From positions 1 through 40,610 of the forward strand of contig CAILJM010000009.1 of NCBI GenBank assembly GCA_903834515.1: a stretch of DNA of 40,610 bases, given 5' to 3'. Source of the stretch: an uncultured Actinomycetes bacterium (GTDB taxonomy: Bacteria; Actinomycetota; Actinomycetes; Nanopelagicales; Nanopelagicaceae). The position numbers were made by a program, and so were the translations under genes. The notes below the pieces were generated by a model. The model saw only the letters and a program-made list of their open reading frames with translations, did no database searches and was not told where the DNA came from. This document shows positions 27,591-35,483 of the stretch, one piece after another (within the stretch, counting starts at the first letter, position 1; each line of letters begins with the position of its first letter).

Positions 27591-29276
27591 ATGAGCAGTG
27601 AGAAGAATTCGATGAAGCCACGTTCAGGTCTTGTCACCGATGGACTTGAGCGAGCTCCAGCACGTGGCATGCTCCGTGCCGTTGGCATGAAAGATGCCGA
27701 TTTTAAGAAGCCTCAGATCGGTATCGCATCATCGTGGAATGAAATCACGCCATGCAACCTCTCACTCGATCGCCTTGCAAAAGCATCACGCAAAGGCGTC
27801 ATTGAAGCGGGTGGATTCCCTATGCAATTTGGAACGATCTCAGTATCTGATGGAATCTCTATGGGCCACGAAGGAATGCACTTCTCGCTCGTATCGCGCG
27901 AAGTAATTGCCGACTCTGTTGAAACCGTTATGCAAGCAGAACGTCTTGATGGCATGGTTACCTTTGCTGGCTGCGATAAATCATTGCCTGGCATGATGAT
28001 GGCAGCAGCGCGAATCGATGTCGCAAGCGTCTTTGTCTATGCAGGATCAACTCTCGCAGGCCAGGTAGATGGCCGCGATGTAACGATCATTGATGCCTTT
28101 GAAGCAGTTGGAGCATGTGCTCGCGGACTTATCTCTCAAGAGAAGGTCGATGAGATTGAACGCGCTATCTGCCCAGGCGAAGGTGCCTGCGGTGGTATGT
28201 ATACCGCGAACACTATGGCCGCAGTCGGTGAGGCAATCGGTCTTTCACTTCCAGGTTCAGCTTCCCCTGCTGCAGTTGATCGCCGCCGCGATGATTATGC
28301 AGTCCAAGCTGGTGCAGCTGTTGTCGAGTTGATCCGCAAGGGAATCACAACCCGCGATATCTTGACGAAGAAAGCATTTGAGAACGCAATCACTGTCGTG
28401 ATGGCACTAGGCGGTTCAACCAATGCGGTCTTGCACCTACTTGCGATCGCAAACGAGGCAGAGGTCGAACTCACTCTCGAAGATTTCCAACGCATCAGCG
28501 AGCGCACACCTCTGCTCGGTGACCTCAAGCCATTTGGCAAATATGTCATGACAGATATTGATCGCGTCGGTGGAATCCCAGTCGTATTGCGTGCTCTTCT
28601 TGATGCGGGCTTCTTGCACGGTGATTGCCTCACTGTGACAGGAAAAACCATGGCGGAAAATCTTGCCGACCTCACACCTCTTGATCCAGATGGCGATGTC
28701 TTGCATGCAATCAAGAGCCCGCTCTCTGCTGGTGGCGGAATTACCATTCTTGGTGGATCACTCGCTCCTGAGGGTGCAGTCTGCAAAACAGCCGGTGTTG
28801 GCGTCGAGAATTTCGAAGGACCCGCGCGAGTATTTGAACGCGAGCAAGCAGCTATGGAAGCTCTCGAAAATGGCACCATTCAAGCCGGGGATGTCATCGT
28901 TATTCGTTACGAAGGTCCAAAGGGTGGACCCGGTATGCGCGAGATGCTGATGATCACTGGGGCAATCAAGGGCGCTGGACTCGGTAAGTCGACCTTGCTG
29001 CTGACGGATGGTCGTTTCTCGGGTGGATCTACTGGACTCTGTGTTGGCCACGTTGCCCCAGAGGCGGTTGATGGGGGACCCATCGCCTTCGTTGAGAATG
29101 GCGATATCGTGCGAATCGATATCAAGGCCCGCACATTGGACCTGCTCGTCGAGGAGAGCGTCTTGGCGCAGCGACGCAAGCACTTCTCGCCGATCCCTCA
29201 TAAGTACAAGAGAGGCGTCTTGGCGAAGTATTCGAAGGTCGTGGGAAGCGCTTCGCAGGGAGCCGTTACTAGTTGA
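27591..29276 (+). CDS. ilvD: Dihydroxy-acid dehydratase
   Basis: A 561-residue iron-sulfur enzyme that dehydrates the dihydroxy acids of valine and isoleucine synthesis to 2-keto acids. Three conserved cysteines, Cys55 (TPCN), Cys128 (GCDKSLPG) and Cys200 ([12 protein letters not shown]), are the cluster ligands; their presence fits the [2Fe-2S] type. AAGGGG lies 8 nt before the ATG. It precedes the ilvBNC operon but is separated by about 270 bp that include an attenuator. The last codons and stop are duplicated downstream. Confidence 0.96.
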
Positions 29277-29317
29277 GGCGACCGGAGTGGGGGGAGCCGT
29301 TACTAGTTGAGGCGACC
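29258..29317 (+). repeat. 26-bp direct repeat covering the ilvD stop codon
   Basis: The 26 bases at 29258-29283, which include the last ilvD codons and TGA (core GCCGTTACTAGTTGAGGCG), recur exactly at 29292-29317. The period is 34 bp with an 8-bp spacer. It is not a multiple of three and lies after the stop, so the protein is unchanged. Confidence 0.92.
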
Positions 29318-29350
29318 TACGCTCAAATATTGAGATCTGCGTCTCAGGGG

Positions 29351-29388
29351 TTGACTCACTTCACGGCGTCAGCGAGAATTAACCCATG
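29351..29388 (+). promoter_or_regulatory. Promoter of the ilvBNC-serA-leuB-ilvE-cimA operon
   Basis: The -35 box TTGACT (29351-29356) and the -10 box GAGAAT (29374-29379) are 17 bp apart. Six nt later comes the ATG of the leader peptide, so the transcript should begin at that ATG. This is the best -35/-10 pair in the window. Confidence 0.65.
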
Positions 29389-29424
29389 ACATCATCAGTG
29401 GTGATTCGAGAGCGCGCTATCTAG
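29386..29424 (+). CDS. ilvB leader peptide (MTSSVVIRERAI)
   Basis: A 12-codon frame starts at the predicted transcription start and contains Val-Val-Ile at codons 5-7 and Ile as the last residue. These are end products of the operon downstream. A stem-loop and an intrinsic terminator follow at once. Leader peptides with runs of branched-chain residues are known upstream of ilvB in Corynebacterium and Streptomyces. The -10 box 6 nt before the ATG implies leaderless translation. The peptide itself is presumably without function beyond ribosome position sensing. Confidence 0.65.
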   Translation: MTSSVVIRERAI

Positions 29425-29443
29425 TCTGACTAGAAAGTGCGCT
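29411..29443 (+). promoter_or_regulatory. Attenuator pause hairpin upstream of ilvB
   Basis: AGCGCGCT (29411-29418) pairs with AGTGCGCT (29436-29443), and inside it CTAGT (29421-29425) pairs with ACTAG (29429-29433). The 5' arm is the last part of the leader-peptide frame, so a translating ribosome opens or permits this stem. It abuts the terminator with no gap. Confidence 0.6.
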
Positions 29444-29471
29444 ACCCCTCAGTGGAAAAACTGAGGGGTTT
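29444..29471 (+). terminator. Attenuator terminator upstream of ilvB
   Basis: ACCCCTCAGT (29444-29453) pairs fully with ACTGAGGGGT (29460-29469) around GGAAAA, followed by TT and C-interrupted T. It stands between promoter and ilvB, so it must be conditional. I did not find an obvious antiterminator pairing. Confidence 0.7.
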
Positions 29472-29492
29472 CTCATTTACCGACTGAATTAC

Positions 29493-29519
29493 CAGTGTTA
29501 ACAGTGATACCAGTGATAG
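29493..29519 (+). repeat. Three CAGTG units at 9-bp period before ilvB
   Basis: CAGTGTTAA, CAGTGATAC and CAGTGATAG stand head to tail between the attenuator and the ilvB ribosome-binding site. Confidence 0.6.
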
Positions 29520-29547
29520 CAACGCAATCTTGCGGAAGGAGATGAAC

Positions 29548-31287
29548 ATGAGTGAAGAAGTAACAGGGGCGCAGTCGCTCGTGAAATCTTTGGAGCAAGC
29601 AGGCGTGGATGTCATGTTCGGTATTCCAGGTGGCGCAATTCTTCCTGCATACGATCCAATCTTTGATTCCAAAATTCGCCACATTCTTGTTCGACATGAA
29701 CAGGGCGCCGGCCACGCAGCTACTGGGTATGCCCAAGCGACCGGACGAGTCGGAGTCTGCATTGCAACCTCTGGTCCTGGCGCGACAAACCTAGTTACAC
29801 CTTTGGCCGATGCGCAGATGGATTCGGTTCCGATCGTTGCAATCACTGGCCAAGTCTCATCAGGTGCAATCGGCACAGATGCATTCCAAGAGGCAGATAT
29901 TCGCGGAATCACCATGCCGGTCACCAAGCACAACTTTCTCGTTACCGATCCAAAAGATATTCCACGCGCTATTGCTGAGGCATTTCACATTGCATCGACC
30001 GGTCGTCCCGGTGCAGTCCTCGTCGATATAGCCAAAGACGCGCTTCAGCTCAACACAACTTTTGATTATCCACGGGAAGTAATGCTCGCTGGTTATAACC
30101 CAGTCATGAATCCTGCATCGGAGGCTCTGCGCGATGCTGCAGCGCTGATTGCACAGTCAAGTGCGCCAGTGCTTTATGTCGGTGGTGGAGTCATTAAAGC
30201 TAATGCACATAGAGAGTTAATGGAGCTCGCAGAGCTCACAGGGGCTCCAGTGGTGACGACTTTGATGGCGCTCGGATCTTTCCCTGATAGCCACCCACAA
30301 CATCTTGGCATGCCGGGAATGCACGGAACTGTTGCAGCAGTAACGGCTCTTCAGAAGTCAGATTTACTCATCACACTAGGCGCTCGTTTTGATGACCGCG
30401 TCACTGGCAAGCTCTCAAGCTTTGCGCCGAATGCAAAGGTGATCCACGCTGATATTGACCCTGCTGAAATCGGCAAGAATCGTAGAGTCGATGTCGCCCT
30501 TCTAGGAGATTTAAAGAACAGCATTAAGGGATTGATCCCAGAGTTGAAGGCGGTCTTTACCAAGAGCAAGCCAGATCTCAGTGGTTGGTGGAGCACCGTT
30601 AATCAATGGCGCGAGCAGTTCCCGCTTGGCTTTGATGAGCCGACGGATGGCTCGCTCTCACCACAATATGTCATTCAGCGATTGGGTCAGATAGCTGGAC
30701 CAGATGCACTCTATGTTGCTGGCGTTGGTCAACATCAGATGTGGTCATCACAATTTATTAATTATGAGAAGCCTCGTACTTGGCTGAACTCAGGTGGCTT
30801 AGGAACTATGGGATACGCCGTTCCAGCAGCCATGGGAGCCAAGGTTGGCGCACCAGATAAAGTCGTATGGGCAATTGATGGCGATGGGTGTTTCCAGATG
30901 ACGAATCAAGAGCTCGTTACCTGCGCTCTCAATAACATCCCTATCAAAGTGGCGATCATTAACAATGAATCACTTGGAATGGTTCGCCAATGGCAGACCC
31001 TCTTCTACAACCAGCGCTACTCAAATACCGAGTTACATTCCAAGCGTATTCCTGATTTCGCGAAACTTGGCGAGGCGATGGGATGCGTCGGATTGCGTGC
31101 TGAACGAAAAGAAGATGTCGATCGCGTTATCAATGAAGCGATGGCGATTAATGATCGTCCAGTTGTTGTTGATTTCTCGGTTCACCGAGATGCCATGGTC
31201 TGGCCGATGGTTGCAGCTGGCGCATCAAATGACCTCATCACCGTCGCGCGCTCTATGGCGCCTGTCTGGGATTCGCAGGAGCTCTAA
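29548..31287 (+). CDS. ilvB: Acetolactate synthase, large (catalytic) subunit
   Basis: A thiamine-diphosphate enzyme of 579 residues, first common step of valine, leucine and isoleucine synthesis. The catalytic Glu51 lies in [10 protein letters not shown]. The ThDP-Mg motif runs from GDGCFQMT to IINN in the C-terminal third, and the central FAD-binding domain is present. The ATG at 29548 is preferred to earlier in-frame starts because AAGGAG (29536-29541) is 6 nt before it. It overlaps ilvN as TAATG. Expression is probably set by the leader-peptide attenuator. Confidence 0.97.
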
Positions 31288-31790
31288 TGTCACAGAATCA
31301 CACACTCTCAGTCCTCGTTGAGAACAGCCCTGGCGTTCTTGCCCGCGTTGCATCGCTCTTCTCCCGTCGTGGATACAACATCGATTCACTTGCAGTTGGC
31401 CCAACGGAGAATCCAGATATCTCCCGCATGACGATTGTTATCGATGTCGATGGCCATGCGCTCGAACAGGTTATTGCCCAACTCGATAAATTGATTAACG
31501 TCATCTCTATCACTCAGTTAAACCCAGTGACCTCAGTCCAACGCGAGCTCTTGCTCGTCAAAGTTTCAACAACTCCAGAGAATCGCTCTCAAGTTCTTGA
31601 AACCGTCCAACTATTCCGTGCCAAGGTTGTCGACGTCGCACAGGATGCCGTAACAATCGAAGCAACCGGAAATGCCGAAAAGATTCAGGCACTCTTACGA
31701 GTCCTTGAGCCTTATGGCATTAAGGAATTAGTCCAATCAGGTCTTGTCGCAATGGAGCGAGGACTTCGTCTCACCGAAAAGTTCATTTAA
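31287..31790 (+). CDS. ilvN: Acetolactate synthase, small (regulatory) subunit
   Basis: This 167-residue protein has an N-terminal ACT domain (LSVLVENSPGVLARVASLF, then RRGYNIDSLAVG) and a C-terminal ferredoxin-like domain ending GLRLTEKFI. It binds valine, giving feedback inhibition, and stimulates IlvB. It overlaps the ilvB stop, consistent with one-to-one synthesis. Confidence 0.96.
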   Translation: MSQNHTLSVLVENSPGVLARVASLFSRRGYNIDSLAVGPTENPDISRMTIVIDVDGHALEQVIAQLDKLINVISITQLNPVTSVQRELLLVKVSTTPENRSQVLETVQLFRAKVVDVAQDAVTIEATGNAEKIQALLRVLEPYGIKELVQSGLVAMERGLRLTEKFI

Positions 31791-34439
<2,649 letters not shown>

Positions 34440-34443
<4 letters not shown>

Positions 34444-35483
34444 TGGCGAATTACAAATTAGCGGTCATTCCTGGTGATGGAATTGGGCCTGAAGTTGTCG
34501 CCGAGGGGATCAAAGTTCTCGATGTAATTTCGGCCAAGCATGGCCTCACATTTGAAAAGAGTGAGTATGAACTTGGCGCCAAGTACTGGCACAAGACAGG
34601 GGAGACTCTTCCTGATTCAGTGATGGCTGATCTTGCGAAGGCAGATGTCATTCTGCTCGGTGCAGTAGGAGATCCATCTGTGCCAAGCGGAGTACTCGAA
34701 CGTGGCCTGCTCTTGAAGCTTCGTTTTGCCTTCGATCATTTCATCAACTTGCGACCAACAAAACTCTATCCAGGGGTCGCATCACCATTGCGCGAGCCGG
34801 GTGAAGTTGATTTTGTTGTTGTCCGCGAAGGAACTGAAGGTCCATACATCGGTGCCGGTGGCGTTCTCGCTTTAGGCACGGAGAATGAGATCGCGACTGA
34901 AGAGAGCATTAATACTCGTCGTGGTGCAGAGCGAACGATTCGCTATGCATTCGAACGAGCGATGGAACGTCCGCGAAAGAAAGTCACACTTGTTCATAAG
35001 AACAATGTCTTGACTCGTGCCGGAAGTCTTTGGACGCGCGCATTTAACGATGTCGCAAAGGAATACCCTGCAATAACAACTGATTACATTCACGTGGATG
35101 CGGCAGCGATGTTCTTTGTCACCCAGCCACACCGATTTGATGTGGTCGTAACCGATAATCTCTTCGGTGACATCATCACCGATATCGCCGCTGCGATAAG
35201 TGGTGGAATCGGACTTGCAGCTTCAGGCAATATCAATCCAACAGGCAAGTTCCCATCGATGTTCGAGCCGATCCATGGATCAGCGCCGGATATTGCAGGG
35301 AAGCAGTTGGCAGATCCGACCGCGACAATTTCATCTGTTGCGATGATGCTCACTCATTTAGGTCACCACGATGCTGCAGCTGAAATTGCGGCAGCAGTTA
35401 CTCGAGATCTAGAAAACCGTGGAAGCGCGAAACGGAGCACTGCCGAAGTTGGAACGGCAATCGCAGAATCACTTAAAGGATAA
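34440..35483 (+). CDS. leuB: 3-isopropylmalate dehydrogenase
   Basis: This 347-residue NAD-dependent decarboxylating dehydrogenase shows [11 protein letters not shown] at the N-terminus, the substrate region [17 protein letters not shown] and the metal site [10 protein letters not shown]. It oxidises 3-isopropylmalate in leucine synthesis. With the citramalate synthase downstream it probably also processes the methylmalate intermediate of isoleucine. Two ATG codons follow in tandem; the first overlaps the serA stop as ATGA. leuA and leuCD are not in the window. Confidence 0.95.

Follow-up and report, generated by a model that had tools for sequence, protein, structure and literature searches.

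An ilvB leader-peptide attenuator of a Nanopelagicaceae genome with two abutting, non-overlapping hairpins

The ilvB locus and its leader

The stretch of DNA analysed here (the window, 40,610 nt) is contig 9 of a small 1.48-Mb actinobacterial genome, and carries ilvD and then ilvB, ilvN, ilvC, serA and leuB, these five in one direction. The features of the locus are as follows.

29331..29346, no strand assigned: palindrome TGAGATCTGCGTCTCA, candidate operator, 4 bp upstream of the -35 box
29351..29379, + strand: promoter TTGACT-N17-GAGAAT, whose hexamers and spacing recur in relatives
29386..29424, + strand: leader-peptide ORF MTSSVVIRERAI with TAG stop; transcription start predicted on the A of its ATG, leaderless as judged from promoter spacing
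29398..29406, + strand: regulatory codons GTG GTG ATT (Val Val Ile), from codon-run, codon-usage and gating statistics
29411..29443, + strand: hairpin 1 (8 + 6 pairs), ribosome-gated, proposed antiterminator, from folding and covariation
29444..29469, + strand: intrinsic terminator hairpin, 10 pairs, adjoining hairpin 1 with no spacer
29470..29479, + strand: terminator tail TTCTCATTTA, a weak U-tract, from sequence and consensus scan
29536..29541, + strand: AAGGAG, Shine-Dalgarno-like sequence of ilvB, read from the sequence
29548..31287, + strand: ilvB, acetolactate synthase large subunit (NCBIfam NF005860, 1077.4 bits)
31287..31790, + strand: ilvN, acetolactate synthase small subunit (NCBIfam NF008864)
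31824..32858, + strand: ilvC, ketol-acid reductoisomerase (NCBIfam NF004017)
32842..34443, + strand: serA, phosphoglycerate dehydrogenase (TIGR01327); possibly in the ilvB operon, from overlap
34440..35483, + strand: leuB, 3-isopropylmalate dehydrogenase (NCBIfam NF002898); possibly in the ilvB operon, from overlap

As the ends of serA and leuB overlap after ilvC, serine synthesis may share the ilvB attenuator. A perfect 26-bp direct repeat (29258-29283 and 29292-29317, start-to-start distance 34 bp) duplicates the end of ilvD; by eye, similar duplications are present in two relatives (L005 and L007), and a short tandem array lies at this junction in another (L033).

The promoter comprises TTGACT (29351-29356), a 17-nt spacer and GAGAAT (29374-29379), followed after 6 nt by the ATG at 29386, its A standing seven bases past the -10 hexamer. 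In a consensus scan of 29200-29600 this was the sole promoter-like site (9/12 matches; shuffles average 0.2), and the scan found no promoter-like site between the terminator and ilvB. The ORF encodes M T S S V V I R E R A I stop, 12 codons. The initial annotation had taken this promoter to put the transcription start on the ATG of a 12-codon frame containing Val-Val-Ile, and rereading and the consensus scan reproduce its coordinates. It had also considered the leaderless start and the very short peptide to be unusual; these features are ordinary here, because published ilvB leaders of other Actinobacteria are described as leaderless and encode 13-15 residues (PMC8079986; PMC11857589). Counted from the first base of the -35 box, the distance to the start codon is 35-37 nt in 83 of 106 loci by one pick of starts, some of them visibly wrong (L004, L032), and in 101 by another; both picks are biased toward starts that have a promoter so placed, and this spacing was dropped as a statistic for leaderlessness.

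Folding gives -19.1 kcal/mol for hairpin 1, -18.6 for the terminator and -38.6 for both formed together, and hairpin 1 has a z-score of -3.96 against dinucleotide shuffles. The terminator, the sole terminator-like site in 29200-29600 by consensus scan (shuffles average 0.4), has 10 pairs, 6 of them G-C, and a loop of 6 nt, followed by a weak U-tract (TTTCTCATTT) whose first T is paired. A nested hairpin of 8 + 5 bp directly abutted by a 10-bp terminator had been described from the letters of the sequence; the coordinates of both elements and the outer 8 bp stand, while the inner helix folds as 6 pairs rather than 5. A closing helix around both hairpins, between GAG at 29408-29410 and a CTC in the tail, was suggested by the minimum-energy fold and failed the slide control, with 69.4% of alignment cells paired as against 81.5% when slid by -2 or -3. 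At gathering thresholds, Rfam matched only two tRNAs in the whole window, with no ppGpp or T-box type riboswitch match. The ilvB-OMG RNA (RF02919) scored 12.2 bits against a gathering threshold of 95.9, and the other relaxed matches (microRNA models, and His_leader at 13.1 bits with a threshold of 49) were likewise far below threshold; no family named ilvB-II was among the Rfam matches of the window.

Conservation of the leader and its branched-chain codons

A covariance model built from 24 leaders picked out a single strong copy in the genome of the window, at 88.6 bits with the next best match at 16, and one strong site in each of 107 of 112 family genomes of at least 90% completeness, covering 12 of 12 genera; the misses were G004 and G017 (both with a partial ilvB that lacks its 5' end), G338, G372 and G387. 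All 43 family matches with a known ilvB place lie 26-96 nt upstream of the matched ilvB start. At 21 same-genus loci the leader peptide is MTSSVVIRERAI in 15, MKSSVVIRERAI in 4, MTSVVVIRERAI in 1 and MASDKKAVVIRERAI in 1, and these relatives keep the promoter and both hairpins, while by eye the stretch between terminator and ilvB differs. Loss of the peptide codons or the stems in relatives, which had been named as grounds for rejecting the attenuator, is thus not what was found. The nearest named loci are from uncultured actinobacteria, including a Candidatus Nanopelagicaceae metagenome-assembled genome, and the label "Nanopelagicales type" used below is drawn from them. Covariation had been proposed as a check on both stems. 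Hairpin 1 does covary, with 89.8% of cells paired as against 18-48% when slid, and with both sides changed in 7 of 13 pairs; 0 of 500 shuffles came as high. The terminator gave no usable signal, and we make no claim for it: 73.7% of cells were paired in the MAFFT alignments and the same proportion when slid by -1, because forms with three and four C's were aligned out of register.

The hairpin plan of the window recurs before ilvB in many actinobacterial families. A first set of 110 ilvB loci (30 + 80) allowed a terminator to be placed in 108 (L057 at a contig edge, and L064, where no terminator was found, were left out, and six terminators were placed manually) and a leader ORF in 106 (L075 and L088 had none in reach); L087 was excluded from the folding, spacing, energy-retention and codon-register counts. 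Exact duplicate leaders were merged, leaving 88-91 depending on the analysis, and many of these are related, so that counts are not independent. With hairpin 1 folded without terminator bases, its distance to the outermost terminator pair in 89 leaders was -1 in 18, 0 in 53, +1 in 12, +2 in 4 and more in 2, and therefore within -1 to +1 nt in 83, despite hairpin spans of 23 to 68 nt. Again excluding terminator bases, a spacing of at most 2 to the first G-C pair was found in 96.6% of the 89 leaders and in 50% of shuffles; with terminator bases allowed, 69% of shuffles fell at -3 to +2. Spacing is thus weak as a main statistic, and we place more weight on the codon register given below. Forty more loci, drawn from 25 families, included 9 from the window's family and at least two already in the first set (L149 = L051, L153 = L046); 38 of the 40 yielded a call, with a hairpin-terminator spacing of 0-3 in 34; two gave nothing, and L134, L136, L144 and L153 gave spacings of 7-24, of which L134 was judged spurious and L153 to have too wide a terminator boundary.

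Non-overlap of the two hairpins is not a universal rule, since in other lineages hairpin 1 can extend into the terminator. Offered three terminator bases, and with 27 nt free ahead of the stop codon, it incorporates 2-3 of them in 30 of 91 leaders; once a ribosome occupies the first codon, pairing of these bases exceeds 0.5 in 6 of 90. Some lineages may therefore use a short overlap as in Corynebacterium glutamicum; the window does not. A second layout was observed in 22 of 91 leaders (including L045, L047, L048, L066, L049-L052, L053, L063, L086 and L101), in which the stop codon lies at or before the foot of hairpin 1, at most 2 nt inside, and not in its 5' arm.

The leader peptides are enriched in runs of branched-chain residues. 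A run of at least three I/L/V occurs in 66 of 71 distinct peptides, where residue shuffles expect 29.2 and reach at most 40. In leaders of the Nanopelagicales type GTG makes up 87 of 117 Val codons, and it accounts for 12.6% of the Val codons of ilvB at 21 named loci of this type and 13.7% in eight genes of the window; in the other leaders GTA makes up 70 of 122 Val codons, as against 2.0% in their ilvB genes. These codon counts include near-identical relatives, and L066 is grouped with the others in the leader count and with the Nanopelagicales type in the ilvB comparison. Within each lineage, the Val codon favoured by the leaders (L003-L112) is the rarest or nearly so, GTG in the Nanopelagicales type and GTA in high-GC Actinobacteria. 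Attenuation theory is reported to relate codon choice to sensitivity by way of tRNA supply relative to usage, and not by rarity itself (PMC1183508).

Directly upstream of ilvB stands a short ORF that carries a run of branched-chain codons, with a hairpin over this ORF and an intrinsic terminator immediately behind; relatives keep all of these, and together they define a real and well-conserved ilvB attenuator of a known actinobacterial kind. Leader peptides with terminators are described before ilvB in Corynebacterium, Mycobacterium and Streptomyces (PMC1262725), an ilvB-II motif is listed for Corynebacterium (PMC10272879, PMC11109978), and homologous leaders are reported to respond experimentally in C. 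glutamicum (PMC11857589) and M. tuberculosis (PMC13236596). In C. glutamicum ilvBNC (ilvL; ilvB-II) the peptide starts 1 nt from the transcription start (PMC11857589, PMC10272879), and, as in the window, branched-chain codons stand beside an ORF-spanning hairpin with a terminator behind, upstream of ilvB. The ilvBHC leader of S. lividans and S. coelicolor (MRTRILVLGKRVG) encodes a similarly short peptide of 13 residues and has a terminator before ilvB; its ilvL is leaderless by RNA-seq in S. lividans (PMC8079986), whereas the leaderless start in the window is predicted from spacing. Streptomyces loci share a similar hairpin plan and differ from the window in that their U-tract is strong and their hairpin 1 has a longer insert and may reach into the terminator by a GGA/TCC extension. 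The ilvB1NC leader of M. tuberculosis, with LVVI regulatory codons and a terminated leader RNA, is also similar (PMC13236596). Earlier work cited in PMC1262725 found ilvB regulation in S. coelicolor unaffected by changes of the leader codons, which counts against a codon-sensing attenuator in that organism.

Ribosome position and the folding of the leader

A 2005 paper (PMC1262725) described the mechanism of actinobacterial ilvB attenuation as not clear, and its details in C. glutamicum are described as still debated (PMC11857589). What is new in the window is a switching step that the textbook scheme does not explain, in a variant free of overlap. In attenuators of the E. coli trp and ilvGMEDA type, as is proposed for the window, a ribosome on a leader ORF senses amino acid supply ahead of an intrinsic terminator. 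Their leader translation starts from a Shine-Dalgarno site, and their antiterminator sequesters the 5' arm of the terminator, which by folding is not the case in the window. Each leader was folded over the stretch that starts at the front edge of the ribosome (A-site codon + 12 nt) and closes with the terminator 5' arm, as it stands while the 3' arm is still to be transcribed, an approach that covers nested pairing. In the E. coli controls the terminator 5' arm was paired at the first regulatory codon at 0.62 in trp, 0.82 in thr, 0.74 in leu, 0.77 in ilv and 0.33 in his, and at 0-0.1 with the ribosome at the stop. Ninety actinobacterial leaders gave a median of 0.04 at the first codon (above 0.5 in 2), 0.28 at the last codon of the run (above 0.5 in 9) and 0.24 at the stop (above 0.5 in 4). 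The arm is thus less paired at the first codon than at the last codon and the stop, an order that is the reverse of that in E. coli. The free RNA itself folds at a median of -21.3 kcal/mol with the ribosome at the first codon as against -1.9 at the stop. For 33 leaders of the type seen in the window's family, the median at the first codon was 0.02 (above 0.3 in 8). In the window the values were 0.01, 0.07 and 0.08 at first codon, last run codon and stop, and with footprints of 10 to 16 nt pairing stayed at or below 0.11 at the three run positions. Pairing of the window's arm was 0.26-0.31 at codons before the run, up to 0.38 from Glu to Ala, and 0.25 without a ribosome.

By nested folding over ribosome positions, then, a classical antiterminator was not found in the window, nor as a rule in the 90 leaders. 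This is in agreement with the lack of an obvious antiterminator pairing noted in the initial annotation, in that these folds show no terminator arm sequestered when the ribosome stalls, and in them the window does not fit the trp-type scheme of four segments, in which arm 2 sequesters the terminator 5' arm. An overlooked attenuator of this kind, for instance with a weak arm 2 pairing or a pseudoknot, could draw on the partial pairing seen at the last codon and stop across the leaders, and before the run and from Glu to Ala in the window; we consider it improbable given that pairing above 0.5 at the first codon is confined to 2 of 90 leaders, that the window stays far below the E. coli values, and that the order of pairing is reversed. 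The "fast" attenuator proposed for C. glutamicum, in which antiterminator and terminator share about 3 nt (PMC11857589), differs from the window too, where hairpin 1 runs up to 29443 and the terminator from 29444 on, with no base in common. An anti-antiterminator is also proposed in C. glutamicum, and no third structure was found in the window. In M. tuberculosis ilvB1NC, a ribosome at the stop codon is thought to mask the antiterminator, as we propose for the window, although terminator and antiterminator are described there as mutually exclusive, unlike those of the window (PMC13236596).

The element that does respond to ribosome position is hairpin 1. In the window, a ribosome at the first Val codon leaves 7.86 of its 8 outer pairs in place, one at the second Val 4.8, one at Ile 1.2, and one at Arg or beyond 0. 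In 84% of 88 distinct leaders (78% and 82% when the footprint is set to 10 and 14 nt), the codon at which half of the energy of hairpin 1 is lost is no more than one codon away from the end of the branched-chain run. When the run was instead placed at random along its own peptide, the mean was 34% and the maximum 50% in 2000 trials. The run starts before the loss codon in 84 of 88. This codon register fits an antiterminator that folds as long as the ribosome is stalled on the run and opens once the run is passed. It had been suggested that the switch works through the nested hairpin and not a classical 2:3 stem, and the folding agrees, with hairpin 1 as the ribosome-gated element.

Palindromes of the TGAGATCTGCGTCTCA type, with at least 9 of 10 half-site letters, occur in 62 of 94 distinct actinobacterial stretches upstream of ilvB and in 0.8% of shuffles, 43 of the 62 being located 4-5 bp from the -35 box. 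NdgR/LtbR-type IclR regulators are candidate binders; S. coelicolor NdgR is reported to bind upstream of ilvB (PMC4340878), and the published NdgR/LtbR-type motif differs from the palindrome of the window. The conserved palindrome near the -35 box and the NdgR precedent would suit a terminator that acts constitutively to release a short leader RNA, with ilvB mainly under the regulator of the palindrome and the ORF a relic. The keeping of branched-chain runs, rare-codon choice and hairpin 1 register in many lineages makes such a relic very improbable.

A flush hairpin as a proposed antiterminator

We propose that hairpin 1 is a ribosome-gated antiterminator of the ilvB operon that hinders the terminator abutting it, a reading to which we give a probability of about 0.55. 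Because transcription is predicted to start on the ATG, a 70S ribosome would begin at the very 5' end of the RNA. When branched-chain aminoacyl-tRNA is scarce, the first Val codon (29398) would wait in the A site with the front edge of the ribosome at about 29410, and hairpin 1 (29411-29443) could fold at once. With ample supply, the ribosome would reach the stop at 29422-29424 and cover the 5' arm of hairpin 1; the terminator (29444-29469) would then form alone and transcription would end. Hairpin 1 would in this way be an antiterminator without any base common to the terminator. The direction and means of its action we infer from the arrangement of the two hairpins: it probably acts by abutment, since it adjoins the terminator without a spacer, and most likely because the terminator foot must close in the RNA exit channel, where there would be no room for a second helix, or else because the feet of the two hairpins compete. 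Terminator hairpins are reported to invade the RNA exit channel, and a channel-filling protein to prevent termination (PMC6624301). As the folding energies let both hairpins coexist, exclusion, if real, must come from the polymerase, through sterics. A stall at the second Val or at Ile already opens part of hairpin 1, which counts against the abutment model.

A reading with the opposite sign is that hairpin 1 assists termination, acting either as a pause hairpin or as the leading half of a tandem terminator. A stall at the second Val or Ile would then open hairpin 1 and lessen termination, and a ribosome that has finished would leave, allowing both hairpins to form. The two hairpins do adjoin and are jointly stable (see the energies above), stalls at these two codons open part or most of hairpin 1, the last run codon leaves a median of 0.32 of its energy in 89 leaders, and clusters of neighbouring hairpins have been proposed as terminators (PMC8355165). 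Loss of the leader start codon in C. glutamicum is cited as lowering expression by 80% (PMC11857589, citing earlier work). This fits a tandem terminator better than the abutment model, by which an untranslated leader with no anti-antiterminator would be highly expressed. We nevertheless regard assisted termination as unlikely: with the ribosome at the first run codon hairpin 1 stays intact (median retention 0.99; 76 of 89 leaders keep at least 0.75), the branched-chain codons of some long leaders mostly leave it untouched (10 of 13 in L038), and a ribosome resting on the stop codon would open it too.

Among the literature matches listed, in which subscription journals were thinly covered, no printed account of an overlap-free ilvB attenuator was found. 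We tentatively suggest, as a possibility well short of even odds, that an attenuator in which a non-overlapping flush hairpin, purely by its position, blocks closure of the terminator foot in the exit channel stands before ilvB in the family to which the window belongs, and may extend to much of the actinobacterial class. The register of codons, hairpin 1 and terminator makes a switch independent of overlapping base pairs simple to test. If true, antitermination by a flush hairpin would be the RNA counterpart of antitermination by proteins that block the exit channel, and attenuators of this form may have escaped searches that require terminator and antiterminator stems to overlap.
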